This document shows positions 5,974 through 23,321 of a stretch of DNA of 64,000 bases, piece after piece. The translations under genes and the position numbers were made by a program. The notes under the pieces were generated by a model. The model saw nothing but the letters and a program-made list of their open reading frames with translations. It had not been told where the DNA came from and searched no databases. How positions within the stretch are numbered: position 1 is the first letter of the stretch; the number at the start of each line of letters is the position of its first letter. The stretch spans positions 1,054,001 to 1,118,000 of the forward strand of contig NZ_CP047952.1 of assembly GCF_014279875.1 (NCBI RefSeq). The letters run 5' to 3'. This stretch comes from Synechococcus sp. MEDNS5. GTDB lineage: Bacteria > Cyanobacteriota > Cyanobacteriia > PCC-6307 > Cyanobiaceae.

Positions 5974-6512
5974 TCCGGTAGATCGCGCTCGTCGAGTTCA
6001 GCCTCGATTCTGGGCTGGATCCTGTCGAAGTCCTCTCCTTCAACGAGAACGGCACAGCCATCGTCCATGCGTGCCACCACGAAAAAGGGATCGAGGGGGA
6101 TGTAGAGCCCGTATTCCTGGTCCTCAACGAGGAAACTCACCAGCAGTTCATAGGTCTCGGACTCGTCGTCACCCTCCTCGTCGTCAGCATCTTCCGGTTC
6201 GGGTTCATCCAGTTCACCGTTCACGGTGAGGGTGACGGCCGAACGCACCAGGGTGAGGTCATGTTCCTGCAGCACCACATCAGCAACCGAGAGGATCGGC
6301 TCACTGCTCGCAATGCTGTCGATCAGCTGGGGATCCTCGCCATCGCGGAGCTTGAACAGGCACACGGGCGTGTCCACCGGAGTGAGCAGGGCAAAGTCCT
6401 GGCCATCCAGAGGGATGAGCTGCTCCAGGAAACAGAGCAGGTCGCGTCCCTCGCTGTCTTTGACGAGGACGGTGGGGACTTCACCGCTGGACGACGGGCC
6501 GCTTGAACTCAT
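5970..6512 (-). CDS. DUF3727-family protein
   Basis: A 180-residue acidic soluble protein. The N-terminal part (about 12-90) resembles DUF1292, with VLVKDSEGRDLLCFLEQ. A very acidic linker of Glu and Asp follows (about 102-120). The C-terminal part (about 121-180), with YELLVSFLVEDQEYGLYIPLDPFFVVAR shared in short pieces, matches the cyanobacterial and plastid DUF3727 domain. The biochemical function is unknown. It overlaps both neighbours by 4 bases, between the YqeG-like phosphatase and ruvX, a conserved cyanobacterial arrangement as far as I recall. Confidence 0.82.
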   Translation of the reverse strand: MSSSGPSSSGEVPTVLVKDSEGRDLLCFLEQLIPLDGQDFALLTPVDTPVCLFKLRDGEDPQLIDSIASSEPILSVADVVLQEHDLTLVRSAVTLTVNGELDEPEPEDADDEEGDDESETYELLVSFLVEDQEYGLYIPLDPFFVVARMDDGCAVLVEGEDFDRIQPRIEAELDERDLPE

Positions 6513-7015
6513 GGGGTCGTGGATGGATGTGAACAGGATCCTTCATTAGCCTCATTCCCGCCACGTTCATCGGGCGCCGCGTTGACCGGTTCGACATCCG
6601 GGCCCTCGGCTAACCACTGTTCCAGAAGCAATGCGGCGGCGGCACTGTCGAGTCGACCGCTTCGATCTCCCTGCAGTCCATGCCGATCAGCTGCAGCCCA
6701 GCTGCTGCTGTGTTCATTCACAAAGGCGAGAGGAAGACCAAGATCTCGGGCGATCCTTCGTCCATAGCGACGGCAGTGGTGCGCCTGGTCTGTGAGCTGT
6801 CCCTGATCATCCAAGGGGACGCCCACCACCAGTCCTTGCACGTTGCGCTGATGGCAAAGTGTCTGCAAGTAATGAAGATTCTGCGCATGGGCGCCACGGT
6901 GCAATGCCGGAAGGGGTGACACCGTCAGCCCCAGGCCATCGCAACCGGCGAGTCCGATGCGGCGCCGGCCGACGTCGAGACTGAGCATTGAGCGGGGGGC
7001 AGGCCTGGGATTCAA
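6509..7015 (-). CDS. ruvX: Holliday junction resolvase-like RuvX/YqgF
   Basis: An RNase H-fold nuclease of the YqgF family, linked in other bacteria to processing of the 16S rRNA precursor and to Holliday junction resolution. The 168-residue protein has the first catalytic region LSLDVGRRRIGLA (about 11-23), VVGVPLD in the middle, and FVNEHSSS, which matches the usual VDE/EH-S site. The C-terminal tail beyond about 140 is longer than in short relatives and low in complexity. The start overlaps the stop of the upstream GNAT-like gene by 4 bases. Confidence 0.9.
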   Translation of the reverse strand: MNPRPAPRSMLSLDVGRRRIGLAGCDGLGLTVSPLPALHRGAHAQNLHYLQTLCHQRNVQGLVVGVPLDDQGQLTDQAHHCRRYGRRIARDLGLPLAFVNEHSSSWAAADRHGLQGDRSGRLDSAAAALLLEQWLAEGPDVEPVNAAPDERGGNEANEGSCSHPSTTP

Positions 7016-16968: not shown

Positions 16969-18387
16969 TCAGGGCAGGGGAGGGGGAAGAAGCGGCGGCG
17001 GTGGCGCTCCAACCATTGCATCAGCAGGATCTTGGCCGTTGTTTTCGGCAGGCGTGCCTGGAGACTCTTCTCTCAATCGGGGCTCGATCACTTCGGGTGG
17101 GGGGAGGTCTGGCGGTAGATCGGTCTCAATCGGTGGAAGCGTCGGCTCCAGCGGTGCTGCCAAATCGTCCCCAAGGGGCTGTTCGAGCAGCACCAAGGGA
17201 TCAGCGGTAATTGGCGGCTCCGGAAGAGGAGAACGGTTCCTGGTCCCCGGCGTCGTCGGTTGCGCCATATCGGACTCGCGGGACATCGGTTTCGGCGTCC
17301 AGATCATCCGGGCGATGGGTTCAACCCCCTGTTCCATCACGCGGTTAAGACCAGCCAGCGCTCGATCAGCCAGACGCGATCCAGCCATCTGAACACAATC
17401 GGCTGGGCCGTTGCAGGACGCCTGTGTCTGCAGACGCTCTGAGAGGTTGGCGACCAGTCCTCCCTGAAGCTGATTGCGTCGCTCACTCAGCCGTAGCAAG
17501 TACGGGACATGCACAAAACTGGTCGCCCCACCGCTGATCCAATTGGCGTCTTCCTCGGTGAATCCCTTCACGCCTGGAATGATCAGACGACTCTTGGAGG
17601 CATGGTCGGGCATGTAGGCCGCAACCAAGCCTCGCCGCCGTGCGAGTTCTCTGGTCTGTTCCAATGTGAGGCCGTCCTTGCTCATCAGCATTTCCAGCCG
17701 CCCGTCACTGCGCAGGCCGAAGATCATCCTGATCCGAGGCAAGTAGTAGCGGATTCTCTGCCCCATGCTGATGCTGTAAGCGCCTTTGTAGCTGTCAGGG
17801 GGCTGCTCAAGATCGTTGTAAACGCTGTGCAGTCCACCGATGAACATGTCGTAGGTCTGCTCACGTTCAGGGGTGAGTTCCCCGTAGCCGAAGTCCACGC
17901 GTCCGTCGTCACGGATTCCAACGAAGGCCCGCTGTCGGGACGCTGTGCGGTTGCGTCCCCGCCAGATGCGTTGACCGAATTTCAGATCCCCCAAAGGAAC
18001 GGTGATCTCCTGCCCACCGCTGTCGATGTGTCGCTCATACATCGGCCCGGACACGTAAGCCAGTGCTGCCGAGTCCTCAAAGGCATCCTGCTCGCGATCC
18101 CATCCCTCGAGCAGACCAAGTCTGACTTTGCGTGGGTCGAAATCAAGGGCATACACCTCATCATCAGGTTGGTACCTGAAGGTGCCAAGCGCGTCACCTT
18201 CGAGCTCTTGGTCCGTGCGTGGTGTGAGGCCTGGATCGGGTGTCCCCGGTGCAAGCGCAAGCAAACCTGCGAAGACGGCGACTGGAAATCCGAGAATCAG
18301 CCATCGTTTGCGACCGCCAAGCCGCTTCCGTCGTGGCTGACGTCTCCGACGTCCCTTGCCGGTTGCGGGCGCAGTGGTCCGTTTCAC
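16969..18387 (-). CDS. Membrane-anchored conserved hypothetical protein
   Basis: A 472-residue protein. It has a short Arg/Lys-rich N-terminus, one membrane segment (about 27-48), and a large mature domain (about 60-380) with no motif I can name, containing DPRKVRLGLLEGWDREQD, FVGIRDDGRVDFGYGEL and YKGAYSISMGQRIRYYLPRIR; a phosphodiester-glycosidase-like fold is possible, on weak grounds. The last 100 residues are Pro-rich (PPLLPPPLP at the end). I chose the GTG at 18387, which gives a 4-base GTGA overlap with the pdeM stop. An ATG 75 bases upstream is open but would overlap pdeM by 79 bases. Confidence 0.66.
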   Translation of the reverse strand: MKRTTAPATGKGRRRRQPRRKRLGGRKRWLILGFPVAVFAGLLALAPGTPDPGLTPRTDQELEGDALGTFRYQPDDEVYALDFDPRKVRLGLLEGWDREQDAFEDSAALAYVSGPMYERHIDSGGQEITVPLGDLKFGQRIWRGRNRTASRQRAFVGIRDDGRVDFGYGELTPEREQTYDMFIGGLHSVYNDLEQPPDSYKGAYSISMGQRIRYYLPRIRMIFGLRSDGRLEMLMSKDGLTLEQTRELARRRGLVAAYMPDHASKSRLIIPGVKGFTEEDANWISGGATSFVHVPYLLRLSERRNQLQGGLVANLSERLQTQASCNGPADCVQMAGSRLADRALAGLNRVMEQGVEPIARMIWTPKPMSRESDMAQPTTPGTRNRSPLPEPPITADPLVLLEQPLGDDLAAPLEPTLPPIETDLPPDLPPPEVIEPRLREESPGTPAENNGQDPADAMVGAPPPPLLPPPLP

Positions 18388-19106
18388 CGGGCTTGCCGTC
18401 GCTTTCCTGGTTGGGGTTCGGGAGTAAGCCAAGGAACGATGGCGCCCTCGGCCACCAGCCATTTGCGGTAACGGTGACCGCAGTCATGCCCTCCCGTCAA
18501 CTCTCCGAAGGCAGGAATCAGCATTCGCTGCTCGAGTTCGTCGTAGGCGAAACAAGGAAGTCGCAGGCGATCAGCACCCTGGCGCAGGGTTGCCGCTGGA
18601 TGAATATGGCCGCAAATATTGAGCAGTTCTGCCGTAGCTGGGCCGTTTTCTGGTTCGTGGCTCAGCCAGAGACTGCCCAGACGGAAGGACGATTTTCGAG
18701 GAAGCACTGGCATTCGAAGATCCCTGTCGTGATTGCCTCCAACCAGGAGAATCTGGGTTGCAAGCCGTTCAGACAACGTGGCCAGGTCGTGCATCAACCG
18801 GGGGGTGAGCCCCTGGCGACCATGGATCAGATCACCCAGGATGATGATCCTCTCGGGGCTGCAGCTGGTGCAGATCCGCTGAAGACGCCCCAGCGTTCCG
18901 CGATCCTCATCACTCGGCACGGGAATCCCAAAGGCTTGAAACACTTCGGCCTTGCCAAGGTGGAGATCGGCGACCAGAAGGTCTCGGCTCGCCTCTCTCC
19001 AGATCCCCCGATCCGGCAGAAGCACCAGCTGCTCATCCCGCCAACGCCAGATGCAGCCGCCCGTTGGAATCGCTGAATCTGCTTCTGTAGCGTCGATGGC
19101 AGCCAA
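18384..19106 (-). CDS. pdeM: Ligase-associated metallophosphoesterase PdeM
   Basis: A 240-residue calcineurin-type phosphoesterase of the family found beside ligase, exonuclease and helicase genes of the ligase-associated repair set. Metal-site motifs are in order: ADLHLGK (about 46-52), GDLIHG (about 91-96), GGNHDR (about 123-128) and GHIHPA. WRWRDEQLVLLPDRGIW at the N-terminus matches the family. Start: no ATG fits; a TTG at 19106 gives a typical length, and the upstream open frame has no such features. The partner genes are at 28828-31275, 34989-36692 and 37104-38081, all minus strand. Confidence 0.85.
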   Translation of the reverse strand: MAAIDATEADSAIPTGGCIWRWRDEQLVLLPDRGIWREASRDLLVADLHLGKAEVFQAFGIPVPSDEDRGTLGRLQRICTSCSPERIIILGDLIHGRQGLTPRLMHDLATLSERLATQILLVGGNHDRDLRMPVLPRKSSFRLGSLWLSHEPENGPATAELLNICGHIHPAATLRQGADRLRLPCFAYDELEQRMLIPAFGELTGGHDCGHRYRKWLVAEGAIVPWLTPEPQPGKRRQAR

Positions 19107-19151
19107 TGACTCTCCCGATCGTCCATTCTCAACGCATTGTGGGTCGGTCGA

Positions 19152-19340
19152 ATGGCGAGTGCTTCCCAACCCCTCGCTCCTGCGGGAGAAACTCTGTATT
19201 GGCTCCAGCGGCGGTTGATTTCCCTCGAGCGGCAAGAGCGTTTCGAATGTGCCTATGCCCTGCGGATGGAGGTTGCGGAGTGGATTCTCGGAGCTGAAGA
19301 TGGCAACCTCAGGGTTCCACGGTTTCCTGAGCCTCAATGA
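19152..19340 (+). CDS. Small protein with a UVR-like helix
   Basis: A 62-residue protein. The helical segment (about 18-46) has LERQERFECAYALRMEVAEW, which has the spacing of the UvrB/UvrC (UVR) motif. I chose the ATG at 19152; one at 19137 adds five residues. It starts 46 bases from pdeM on the other strand, and its stop overlaps the next tiny gene by four bases (ATGA), supporting that both are real. Short length keeps the confidence moderate. Confidence 0.5.
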   Translation: MASASQPLAPAGETLYWLQRRLISLERQERFECAYALRMEVAEWILGAEDGNLRVPRFPEPQ

Positions 19341-19420
19341 CACTTGCCCTGCTCTTGGCTCTGCTCGGTTCGCTGGTTGCCATGGGCTTCATCGTGAGAC
19401 GGCTTGAGCGCAACGGTTGA
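19337..19420 (+). CDS. 27-residue membrane peptide
   Basis: A single membrane segment (about 2-19, mostly Leu, Ala and Gly) followed by the charged tail VRRLERNG. The start overlaps the previous stop by 4 bases (ATGA), and the stop lies 10 bases from the start of the channel gene. It has the size of photosynthetic or transporter accessory subunits but matches none I know. It may be chance; comparison between strains is required. Confidence 0.4.
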   Translation: MTLALLLALLGSLVAMGFIVRRLERNG

Positions 19421-19430
19421 GGCGGTGAAC

Positions 19431-20495
19431 GTGAAGGCTGCACTCCTTTTGGCAGGGCTAACGGTGCTTGCCTGGCCTGGTGATGCTCTGGCCCAGACGC
19501 TTCGGGTGGGCGTGAGCGGTTCTCCTCCCTTCGTGATCGAGGATGGCGTCGCATTGCGCGGGATCAGTCTCCAGATCTGGGATGAAGCGGCTGATCGTCT
19601 CAACCGCCCTTATGACTTGATCCAGTTTCCGAATACGGAGGCGAATGTGGACGCCGTGGTGAATGGAAAGGTGGATATGGCCATCGGGCCGATCAGCATC
19701 ACCCCAGGTCGTCTGGCCAACCCCAAGATCGACTTCACCCAGCCTTATTTCAACGGCACAGAAGATCTGCTGCTGCCCCTGCGAGCACCCAGTCTTCTGG
19801 CTCGGCTTCGTCCCTTTTTTGGTTGGGCGGCCTTGTCATCAGCCGGGGGGTTGATGCTGCTGTTGTTTCTGGTTGGAAATCTGATCTGGCTGGCGGAACG
19901 CAGGCGGAATGCCGCTCAGTTCCCCCGTCATTACCTTCAGGGTGTGGGCAATGGCATGTGGTTTGCCCTGGTCACGCTCACAACCGTGGGCTATGGCGAT
20001 CGGGCTCCGCTTTCCAAAACCGGTCGCACCATTGCGGGCGTTTGGATGGTGATGTCGCTTCTGGCGCTCTCGTCCATCACGGCTGGCCTGGCCTCAGCCT
20101 TCACTGTTTCGCTCTCTCGGCTTGACCCCACGGATATCCGCGAAAGTGCAGATCTACGGGGCAAGACCGTCGCCGTTGTGGATGGCACGACCAGCGAAAC
20201 CTGGGCGAAGATCTATGGCGCACGGGCGAAGCCTGCCTCAACACTGAACAAGGCCATTGCGTTGCTCGGCAAGGGCAATGTTGATGGGGTGCTTTTCGAT
20301 GGTGCGCCCTTGCGTTTTTACCTTCAGCAAAATCCTGGGGCCCCCTACAAGATTGCGCCATTCAGCCTGGCCAATCAGACCTACGGTTTCGTTCTGCCGA
20401 TCGACAGTCCCTTGCGGACTCCGATTGATGTGGTGTTGCTCGACATGCAACGAAAGGGAGAGGTGAAAAAGATCACAGACTCTCTGTTGCAATGA
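19431..20495 (+). CDS. GluR0-like ligand-gated potassium channel
   Basis: A 354-residue prokaryotic ionotropic-receptor type channel. A signal peptide (about 1-22) is followed by the first half of a solute-binding domain (LRVGVSGSPPFVIED to DFTQPYFNGTEDLLLPL), a membrane segment (about 131-154), a pore loop with the potassium filter TVGYGD (about 185-190), a second membrane segment (about 201-226), and the second half of the binding domain (RESADLRGKTVAVVDGTTSE). The binding domain is split by the pore, as in GluR0. I use the GTG at 19431; a GTG at 19425 and a TTG at 19404 are alternatives. Confidence 0.9.
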   Translation: MKAALLLAGLTVLAWPGDALAQTLRVGVSGSPPFVIEDGVALRGISLQIWDEAADRLNRPYDLIQFPNTEANVDAVVNGKVDMAIGPISITPGRLANPKIDFTQPYFNGTEDLLLPLRAPSLLARLRPFFGWAALSSAGGLMLLLFLVGNLIWLAERRRNAAQFPRHYLQGVGNGMWFALVTLTTVGYGDRAPLSKTGRTIAGVWMVMSLLALSSITAGLASAFTVSLSRLDPTDIRESADLRGKTVAVVDGTTSETWAKIYGARAKPASTLNKAIALLGKGNVDGVLFDGAPLRFYLQQNPGAPYKIAPFSLANQTYGFVLPIDSPLRTPIDVVLLDMQRKGEVKKITDSLLQ

Positions 20496-20518
20496 CCGAG
20501 ACCGGTCCGATGCCGCCT

Positions 20519-20776
20519 TTATTGCAGGGATCCATGCCTGCGCAGGCCTTCCTCAATCAGAAAAGTGGCGAGGCTGCTGCAGCTTCTGCCTTCTGCCAGG
20601 GCCTGCTGCTTCAGTCGATTCATCACACCGGCAGGAAGGGTGACATTCACCCGTTCCGATTCAGCGGCTTCAGCGACCTGCCCGGCGCTGATCTCCGGAT
20701 GCTCTGAGCGCAGTTGTTCCTGCAGCTCATGGAGCAATGTCTGGAGGAATGACACGTAAATGTTTCGTTTGCGCAA
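20519..20776 (-). CDS. Ribbon-helix-helix (CopG-like) small protein
   Basis: An 85-residue protein. The C-terminal half (about 43-82), RVNVTLPAGVMNRLKQQALAEGRS then LATFLIEEGLRR, has the strand-helix-helix form of CopG/Arc DNA-binding proteins. The N-terminal half is a helix of about 25 residues. No toxin-like gene lies next to it: the neighbours are the channel and the DUF296-glutaredoxin gene, both on the plus strand. It may regulate itself or one of them. Confidence 0.68.
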   Translation of the reverse strand: MRKRNIYVSFLQTLLHELQEQLRSEHPEISAGQVAEAAESERVNVTLPAGVMNRLKQQALAEGRSCSSLATFLIEEGLRRHGSLQ

Positions 20777-20842
20777 CGTAATCGTACCGTAATGCCCTTT
20801 AGTTGGCTTGCTTTATTCTGTTGCGGCCTTCTCAGGGATTGC

Positions 20843-21442
20843 ATGGAGACTCTGACCCTCAAGCTGGAACCCGGTCAGGATCTTCACCAGTCCCTTCATC
20901 AACTTGCATCCGATCACCAGCTCAGCGGCTTCGTTCTGGGAGTTGTTGGCGATCTTTCAGCGGCTTGTTTTCAGTGCCCGGGTCAACCCAATCCCACCAG
21001 GATGCAAGGCATACTGGAAGTGATCACACTGAATGGCACGGTTTCTCCGCAGGGAGTTCACCTCCATCTCAGCCTCTCGGACGGAGCTTGCCAGGTTTGG
21101 GGTGGACACCTCGAACCTGGAACCATCGTGCACAGGGGCGTGCAGTTGATGGTCGGATTGAGTGAATTGCCAGGCCAGAGCTCACCAACAACCAGCAACG
21201 GACGGGTTGAGCTGGCCGTTCTCCAAGGATGTCCCTGGTGCCATCGCGCACGCCAGCTTCTCGAACGGCATGCGATTCCTCATCGCCTCATCCCCGTCGA
21301 ATCCGACAGCACATTTGAGGCCTGCCGGAAGCGCAGTGGGCTGAAGGTGTTTCCCCAGATTTTTGTTGATGGGGACTACTTCGGCGACTACACCGCCCTC
21401 CATCAGCTGCATCAGAGTGGCCAGATTGATTCGCTGCGATGA
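20843..21442 (+). CDS. DUF296 (PPC) domain fused to glutaredoxin
   Basis: A 199-residue protein of two domains. The N-terminal part (about 1-118) is the PPC/DUF296 fold: LEPGQDLHQSLHQLASDHQ, GFVLGVVGDLSAACFQ, LEVITLNGTVSPQGVHLHLSLSDGACQVWGGHL in short strands, then GTIVHRGVQLMV. The C-terminal part (about 124-197) is a glutaredoxin with active site CPWC (about 131-134), the TVxP region as KVFPQIFVDG and the final GDYTALHQL helix. DUF296 alone occurs in nucleoid-associated and plant AT-hook proteins. The start ATG at 20843 fits the family. The stop overlaps the next gene by four bases. Confidence 0.84.
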   Translation: METLTLKLEPGQDLHQSLHQLASDHQLSGFVLGVVGDLSAACFQCPGQPNPTRMQGILEVITLNGTVSPQGVHLHLSLSDGACQVWGGHLEPGTIVHRGVQLMVGLSELPGQSSPTTSNGRVELAVLQGCPWCHRARQLLERHAIPHRLIPVESDSTFEACRKRSGLKVFPQIFVDGDYFGDYTALHQLHQSGQIDSLR

Positions 21443-21651
21443 CTGAGTCGACTGACACCGATCTGTGGTCGCACAAGCCATGGTGGTGTCAGCCATGGAC
21501 GATCCTTCTCACCGGCCTGTTCGTGGTGGTTGGCAGCTGGTTGGTGCTTCACCGGCTCTGGGTCACAGGCTCTGTGGCCTTGGTTGTGGGGTGCTGGTGG
21601 TTTCTCTTCCTCGTGATTGCACCCACCGCCTATCGCAATCAGTCGCGCTGA
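21439..21651 (+). CDS. Conserved cyanobacterial two-TM protein
   Basis: A 70-residue protein with two membrane segments (about 20-37 and 44-62) and an N-terminal WSHKPWWCQPW stretch rich in Trp. The family is small and typical of cyanobacteria; role unknown to me. It overlaps the DUF296-glutaredoxin gene by 4 bases (ATGA), so they are co-translated. The last 13 bases overlap the convergent next gene. Confidence 0.7.
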   Translation: MTESTDTDLWSHKPWWCQPWTILLTGLFVVVGSWLVLHRLWVTGSVALVVGCWWFLFLVIAPTAYRNQSR

Positions 21652-21836
21652 GAAGCTCGAAAGCGATGCTTCTCCTCCAGTAATTCCCCTTCCAATTGTT
21701 CAATCAGTTGCGTGACCAGCGCCTGGAACTCAGGCTGGCAACCTCGGAATGCGGCCTTATGCCGGATCGGTTCATTGCGCGTGCGCAGATCGGTCAGCAT
21801 CAGCTGAAGAGCATCGATTCTGGCGTTGCTGTTCAA
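21639..21836 (-). CDS. Small helical protein
   Basis: A 65-residue charged protein with two helices (ARIDALQLMLTDLRTR, then EFQALVTQLIEQLEGELLEE). No family recognised. It is convergent with the two-TM gene, overlapping by 13 bases, and lies 48 bases upstream of the stop of the porin gene on the same strand. It may be real because the amino-acid pattern is regular, but the length is small. Confidence 0.5.
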   Translation of the reverse strand: MNSNARIDALQLMLTDLRTRNEPIRHKAAFRGCQPEFQALVTQLIEQLEGELLEEKHRFRASQRD

Positions 21837-21884
21837 AACGTCACGTCTCGCGCGAGGCGAGGTTATGACACCGGCCGCCGCAGA

Positions 21885-23321
21885 TCAGAATCTCAGGGTT
21901 GTTTTCAGCAAGGCGCCAAGCTGACTCAGGGATGTGCCTTGGGGCGTCTCTGCTCCCAGGGGGCGGCTGAGATAGAAGAGCGCGGGCGTGACGCTGATCG
22001 CGTCTGAAACCTGAACCATCATCCAGCCCTCCATGGCGAAACCGGCGTCGTCGGGAGTCGCCCCTCCCTTCAGAGCCGTCGCAAAGATCGGTTGGCCGAC
22101 GGCCAGCCCCATGGATGTGTCTTCAAACAGCCAATCGCTCCACTGCAAAGCCACCGTCCATGACTGGGAGATCGACACCAGCCCATCGCTCTTCACCGTT
22201 TTGCGATAGCGCGTGCTGTTCCACCCCCACCCGGCGCTGACTGATGGGACCCATCCATCATCGGGGGGTTGCCAGTACCCGCTCAAGGCCGTGCCTGTGG
22301 TGATGCCGGGTTGGTTGAAGCTGCGCAGGGTGAAAGGACTGGCGTAATCAATGATGTTGAAACCGTTCTGGATGGTCGCCAGCGCTGCGGCGATTCCCCA
22401 GGCGTCCGTGGCCCAGCCCACCTGTGCGGTGGCGCTGCTGCCTGCGTCCACCCCGAACATTCCCGATCCGGAAACACCGTTCTCACCGTTGCCGGCGATG
22501 TAGTTGAGGCTGAAGCTCAGCGGTCCTCGTTCCCACATCACACCACCACCGGCGCCGAGATTGCTGCTGTACGCCCCTGAAGCTCCTGCCTGGGTGAACA
22601 GATCCAGCACCGTGTCGTCGGGGTAGACGCTTGGCCACATCGCCAGCATCACGCTCTGGTTCACCCGGCTACCGACGGTGAACGTCCAATCTTCACCCAC
22701 TGGGAACTGATACCAGGCGCGATTGACTCCGAGGCGGTCGGAGACAGGTCCTTGCTGAAAAGCCACCTCCAATTCCGAGAGTTGGCTTGGGCCACCTCCT
22801 CCGAAGGCGTTTTGGTCTGAATCGAGATTGCCAGCTCTCAGCCGGAGATTGAGTAGATCCTTGCCCGTGAAGCTCGTGCGCAGGATCAGCTTCTCGTCGT
22901 AGCCAACGATCGAAGCTCCGAAGCTGCTGCGAATGTCGTTGCGCAGCGTGTCGGAGGTTCCTGCGAAGGCATTGCCTCCGATGATGAACGTGGTGACTCC
23001 CTTCAATCGCGTTGTCGGAGAGAACGCTGTGGCCTCAAGACTCTTGACGGTTTCATCCAGGTGATTCGCCCGATGGTTGCTCAGCTGAATCAGTTCATTT
23101 CTGAGTTCGCTGATCAATCTTTGGATTGCTTCGTGATCCGATCCATGACGCTGCAGACAGTCCTCAAGCTCTGCGGTCGCCTGGAGACGATTCAGTGCCC
23201 GTTCTGGAGCGGGTTCCACAGGTGCACAAGCAAGGGGTCCATCGGTCGTGTTCGAGCGTGCCGCGCTGGGGTTCAACACACTCAGGAGCCCATAAAGCGC
23301 TAAGGGCAACAGGCGTTTCAT
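21885..23321 (-). CDS. Outer-membrane porin (cyanobacterial iron-uptake/OprB type)
   Basis: A beta-barrel porin of 478 residues: signal peptide (about 1-22, after AARS), a helical region with a possible coiled coil (about 45-95), and a barrel (about 100-478) rich in Gly and aromatic residues, ending in a C-terminal phenylalanine (LKTTLRF). The pattern LKGVTTFIIGGNAF, LRLRAGNLDSDQNAF and GYWQPPDDGW is of the cyanobacterial porin family, but the usual N-terminal SLH domain is missing or reduced. Start: ATG at 23321 gives a classical signal; an ATG at 23351 adds ten residues and would overlap the ABC ATPase stop by 4 bases. Confidence 0.87.
   Translation of the reverse strand: MKRLLPLALYGLLSVLNPSAARSNTTDGPLACAPVEPAPERALNRLQATAELEDCLQRHGSDHEAIQRLISELRNELIQLSNHRANHLDETVKSLEATAFSPTTRLKGVTTFIIGGNAFAGTSDTLRNDIRSSFGASIVGYDEKLILRTSFTGKDLLNLRLRAGNLDSDQNAFGGGGPSQLSELEVAFQQGPVSDRLGVNRAWYQFPVGEDWTFTVGSRVNQSVMLAMWPSVYPDDTVLDLFTQAGASGAYSSNLGAGGGVMWERGPLSFSLNYIAGNGENGVSGSGMFGVDAGSSATAQVGWATDAWGIAAALATIQNGFNIIDYASPFTLRSFNQPGITTGTALSGYWQPPDDGWVPSVSAGWGWNSTRYRKTVKSDGLVSISQSWTVALQWSDWLFEDTSMGLAVGQPIFATALKGGATPDDAGFAMEGWMMVQVSDAISVTPALFYLSRPLGAETPQGTSLSQLGALLKTTLRF

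Follow-up and report, generated by a model that had tools for sequence, protein, structure and literature searches.

A GluR0-type channel gene and its two small upstream neighbours in the marine cyanobacterium Synechococcus sp. MEDNS5

Introduction

The closest described system is GluR0 of Synechocystis PCC 6803 (slr1257), whose core has been solved as 1ii5, 1iit and 1iiw. PMC13099474 reports that Synechocystis GluR0 resides in the plasma membrane and exposes both its N terminus and its C terminus on the outside of the cell. It is also reported to restore K+ uptake to E. coli and to have a role in KCl upshock; Q127 and K354 are named there as dimer-interface residues. A second solved core is that of NpGluR0 from Nostoc punctiforme (2pyy). 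The channel described here shares its arrangement with the Group 1 prokaryotic glutamate receptor channels of Ger et al. 2010 (PMC2950845), in which the halves of the binding domain flank a pair of membrane helices and the filter is potassium-like; Synechococcus and Prochlorococcus are never mentioned in the main text of that paper. Eukaryotic AMPA, kainate and NMDA receptors and plant GLRs have a homologous binding domain and pore.

According to PMC8786288, proteins annotated in picocyanobacteria as homologous to the glutamate-binding protein of Synechocystis exist, and that paper treats them as uptake proteins. A search of the open-licence literature found nothing on an ionotropic glutamate receptor in marine Synechococcus. 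The accessible parts of open-licence papers on GluR0 and Synechococcus do not treat the gene described here as a channel, and in PMC4756276 GluR0 occurs in the reference list only. The present gene places in marine Synechococcus a relative of GluR0 that is under selection although it has been lost repeatedly, which opens an ecologically major group to tests of amino-acid-gated K+ flow.

Layout of the locus and of the channel protein

The window is a 64,000-nucleotide stretch of the Synechococcus sp. MEDNS5 genome (2.44 Mb). We assign a probability of about 0.9 to the reading that the gene at 19431-20495 encodes a GluR0-type ligand-gated potassium channel and that the two small genes upstream of it are inherited neighbours and not subunits. 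The features of the locus are as follows.

18384-19118, minus strand: PdeM, ligase-associated phosphoesterase, the upstream landmark (TIGR04123, E 5.8e-57)
19152-19340, plus strand: 62-residue soluble small gene (orf62), not tied to the channel
19337-19420, plus strand: gene for a 27-residue single-helix membrane peptide, found family-wide with or without the channel
19431-20495, plus strand: GluR0-type channel gene, 354 aa (frame read, Pfam, solved-structure matches, fold model)
19983-20000, plus strand: potassium selectivity filter TVGYGD (residues 185-190 of the channel)
20519-20776, minus strand: ribbon-helix-helix (RHH) protein, the downstream landmark (PF07878, E 1.9e-19)

The channel frame runs uninterrupted from a GTG at 19431 to 20495 on the plus strand and encodes 354 residues. 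GAGG lies upstream of this GTG, ending 8 nt before it, and translation could alternatively begin at the in-frame GTG at 19425. Two tiny coupled genes had been described ahead of the channel and are indeed present; orf62 and the peptide gene overlap by ATGA, and the peptide stop lies 10 nt from the channel GTG. A promoter and terminator scan of window positions 18900-20900, which carries little information, called no element, and Rfam gave no match over positions 18000-22000. The encoded protein is laid out in this order.

Residues ~1-22: signal-like start, read by eye
Residues ~23-120: S1 lobe
Residues ~122-156: M1 (helix limits from the predicted model)
Residues 185-190: filter TVGYGD within the pore loop
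Residues ~196-229: M2 (helix limits from the predicted model)
Residues ~235-354: S2 lobe

Three Pfam families match above their curated cut-offs: SBP_bac_3, split across residues 24-350 (E 1.2e-14), Ion_trans_2 at residues 171-224 (E 2.9e-11) and Lig_chan at residues 141-243 (E 8.8e-11). Pfam, the fold model and Foldseek agree that a type-3 solute-binding domain is interrupted by a two-helix pore module. The first-pass annotation, made from the sequence alone, had proposed a split binding domain joined to a two-segment pore with TVGYGD, and these matches, together with the filter itself, bear this out. Hydropathy exceeds 1.6 at two places only (19-residue windows starting at 129-138 and 200-210), and the long helices of the model span residues 122-156 and 196-229. 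The signal-like start stays below 1.6. With only two segments above this value, nothing points to an M4. Unlike the eukaryotic receptors and plant GLRs, the channel has no M4; it also has no N-terminal domain, and it carries a K+ filter.

The protein is 88% identical to one from Synechococcus WH7803, in agreement with the earlier assignment of this DNA to a marine cyanobacterium.

Relationship to GluR0

The channel belongs to a known kind, being a relative of Synechocystis GluR0. Among solved structures the best sequence match is the slr1257 core 1iit (E 3.5e-35), followed by the Nostoc core 2pyy (E 1.9e-20) and then by AMPA receptors and plant GLR3.4. The slr1257 core is 43% (S1) and 36% (S2) identical to the channel over the aligned pieces, and the two proteins share the S1-pore-S2 order, the K+ filter and the positions of the alpha-amino-acid contacts. 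At the dimer interface, GluR0 Q127 seems to correspond to Q104, whereas K354 aligns with a threonine and so seems to differ here; this mapping is inferred, naive numbering being one residue off per lobe.

A model of the channel was predicted as a monomer from eight sequences (mean pLDDT 73.9, pTM 0.54). Its pLDDT is higher in the lobes and falls below 50 at filter residues 186-191. A structural comparison returned the GluR0 core 1ii5 as the best match of the model in Foldseek (E 9.3e-25, as compared to E 5e-22 and weaker for AMPA receptors). The same core ranked first in VIA-align (Z 28.3, 3.3 A, 221 residues), more than 3 Z above the next row. The slr1257 core is thus the best match both by sequence and by predicted fold, and the proposed GluR0-like architecture is supported. 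In the case of 2pyy, VIA-align gave Z 24.9 (3.1 A, 211 residues) with 30% identity in the structural alignment, a Z on a level with those of glutamine-binding proteins (24.2 and below). By sequence, Foldseek and VIA-align, the binding domain is nearer to the solved GluR0 core (1iit/1ii5) than to the transporter binding proteins.

The channel is placed in the GluR0 orthologue group. Two cyanobacterial genomes, G238 and G279, encode channels that share 50% identity with the MEDNS5 channel along almost the whole of its length. Their cores are 77-79% (S1) and 66% (S2) identical to slr1257, and from these close GluR0 cores we infer that both organisms are Synechocystis-like. Most other cyanobacterial matches outside the family of the window genome show about 30% identity to the window channel. 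A channel tree, from which L001, L002, L013, L018 and L052 were omitted, recovered genera g20 and g24 with support of 97/100 and 99/100; genus g1 received 81/0, and the backbone was without resolution.

Filter, ligand site and proposed mode of action

Conservation was counted over 49 cyanobacterial rows (47 distinct), which include the duplicates L001 (the window) and L002 (L021) as well as the shortened L013, L018 and L052, and which exclude three relatives lacking a K+ filter (L025-L027). All six positions of TVGYGD are identical in 49/49 rows. The three excluded relatives, a Planctomycetia MAG and two uncultured-bacterium bins, have the same layout at 25-26% identity, with MNGKTN in the pore loop in place of TVGYGD.

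R94 and G86 are likewise invariant (49/49), and the counts for T91, D290 and T253 are 48, 46 and 44. For T254, another candidate contact, only 33 of the 49 rows have T. In the receptor fold the alpha-carboxylate and alpha-amino groups are held by Arg, Thr and Asp, a role that we assign here to R94, T91, T253 and D290. An inspection of these contacts had been proposed earlier, and the four candidate residues are both present and conserved. The statement that the ligand is not readable from the sequence also stands, as these contact positions do not tell glutamate, serine, glutamine or another ligand apart.

The channel probably opens on amino acid binding outside the cell. By analogy with GluR0, the protein would lie in the plasma membrane after export, both binding-domain lobes facing the outside, and dimerization of the binding domains would be required. 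Four subunits may assemble around the TVGYGD filter. An extracellular alpha-amino acid would then close the two lobes, pull on the M1/M2 linkers and open the pore. The pore would conduct K+, as that of GluR0 does, and this flow could alter the potential across the membrane, the balance of ions and the volume of the cell.

The ligands of type-3 binding domains vary, and this leaves some room for a channel that has kept the fold with a ligand other than an alpha-amino acid, or that has lost ligand gating. The positions presumed to contact the alpha groups speak against it, the Arg, Thr and Asp being kept in 49, 48 and 46 of the 49 cyanobacterial rows, and we regard this alternative as unlikely. 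The preferred reading remains a channel gated by an amino acid.

The 27-residue peptide

The first-pass annotation had suggested that the 27-residue membrane peptide might be an accessory subunit. In its strict form this would make the peptide a dedicated part of the channel, co-translated with it and needed for its assembly or gating. Two observations favor such a role. The peptide lies directly upstream of the channel in 24/24 close family orthologues, with a gap of roughly 5-307 nt between the match end and the channel start as projected (24 class-sample family genomes, four of them with broken channels). It is also conserved: of 780 pairs 488 were usable and 292 were not, and dN was below dS in 487 of the usable ones.

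The co-occurrence data point the other way. At E <= 0.01 a peptide profile gave matches in 49 genomes of the 388 in the class sample. Of these, 44 belong to the family of MEDNS5, and the five outside it are weak partial matches; 20 of the 44 family genomes have no close channel. Six of these 20 genomes are 1.7-1.9 Mb in size. A weak channel paralogue (27-30% identity) is found in eight of the 20, at least 35 kb off or on another contig. Conversely, none of the 10 genomes from other families whose channels are 41-52% identical gave a peptide match at E <= 0.01. G085, which also belongs to another family and encodes a more distantly related channel, has a weak and partial match to the peptide (E 0.0088), located on another contig. 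The peptide is intact beside the broken channels of G023, G241, G305 and G398, and it is present in G018, where the channel is missing.

The peptide as an accessory subunit is rejected on co-occurrence and gene order, since it is not lost together with the channel, and we consider such a subunit very unlikely. The 24/24 adjacency is best read as one inherited arrangement and not as 24 independent observations. Because the peptide stays intact beside broken or absent channels, the channel appears to come and go while the peptide is resident in the lineage. A compromise, in which the peptide is a general picocyanobacterial membrane micro-subunit with its own partner and additionally acts as a co-translated channel modulator in channel-bearing strains, is also quite improbable; if true, it would give a bacterial glutamate receptor with a one-helix auxiliary protein.

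The peptide is nevertheless a real, conserved and independent gene. Over 40 loci, codon positions 1, 2 and 3 are variable at 19, 12 and 22 of 24 sites; over seven genus loci (7 of the 11 among L101-L140) the corresponding counts are 8, 1 and 21. It is present in 23/25 genus genomes; the two without it, G003 and G014, are incomplete. In the class-sample profile search it was not found in any of the 18 listed genomes of genus g17. The orthologues (L101-L140 and L149) are 25-27 residues long and typically read MT[IL]ALL.AL.GSL..M..IV[RK]RLE; the copy in G372 was found by reading. The window peptide matches no Pfam family at E 0.1 and has one sub-threshold NCBIfam match (small_EYxxD, 16.7 bits as compared to a cut-off of 29). 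Four orthologues gave no Pfam or NCBIfam match at E 10, where the HMMER filters are weak for such short queries. The tempting lead of an accessory subunit is thus removed, and an unnamed conserved micropeptide is pointed out as a by-product.

Distribution, selection and decay of the channel gene

The channel is found in 23 of the 25 genus genomes, that of MEDNS5 included, and dN/dS is about 0.12 in comparison with WH7803 (0.068/0.574). These two figures together place its conservation beyond chance. Three close pairs gave dN 0.068-0.086 and dS 0.57-0.80, and two further pairs gave dN 0.21-0.22 and dS 1.4-1.8; in a third further pair dS was incomputable. The channel is under purifying selection. 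Some channel match (E <= 1e-12) occurs in 111 of the 388 class-sample genomes, and PF00060 has a match in none of 14 control genomes.

Within the genus, the gene is in two pieces in G023, has one internal stop in G005 (58% complete) and is cut by a contig end in G003. It is absent from G014 (63% complete), and G018 (99% complete) shows a weak pore-like match only. The G023 and G241 channels have one frame break each, in G241 at the filter, so sequencing error is possible in these two; the G398 channel has two breaks. In G305, an in-frame deletion removes the whole pore and the end of S1, and the shortened S1 runs into S2. The open frame left there (L123, about 5993-6589) undoes, in nature, the step by which the family is supposed to have arisen.

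The broken genes suggest that the channel is dispensable in several relatives. That it is a decaying remnant in MEDNS5 as well, as its broken or missing state in those relatives might hint, is hardly credible given the intact frame, the kept motifs and the dN/dS of the WH7803 comparison.

The 62-residue gene and gene order

The conservation of both small genes beside the channel had been proposed as a check on the locus. This applies to the peptide and fails for the 62-residue gene, which was detected in 4/25 genus genomes. It is found in 10 of the 40 loci, including L110 (G389), which has no close channel beside it. The window copy has no family match in Pfam or NCBIfam. More generally, a soluble gene of 58-62 residues upstream of the peptide is patchily kept.

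The order PdeM, peptide, channel, RHH, PCC/glutaredoxin is seen in 16 of the 20 channel-bearing loci (L121-L140). The exceptions are L126 and L138, which have no RHH gene, and L131 and L132, which have no PdeM. In G018 (L101) the peptide lies between PdeM and RHH without a channel. The downstream side differs at 13 of the 20 peptide-only loci (L101-L120), where the fetched stretch contained no recognized RHH or PCC/glutaredoxin gene; these loci give no reading of an empty channel site. The peptide of six small genomes (L107, L108 and L112-L115) lies between a different landmark, g13874, and PCC/glutaredoxin, with a wider gap in L115. The PCC/glutaredoxin gene of the window (20834-21442) encodes a PCC-domain protein fused to glutaredoxin, and this protein is also present in 9/9 small-genome relatives searched.
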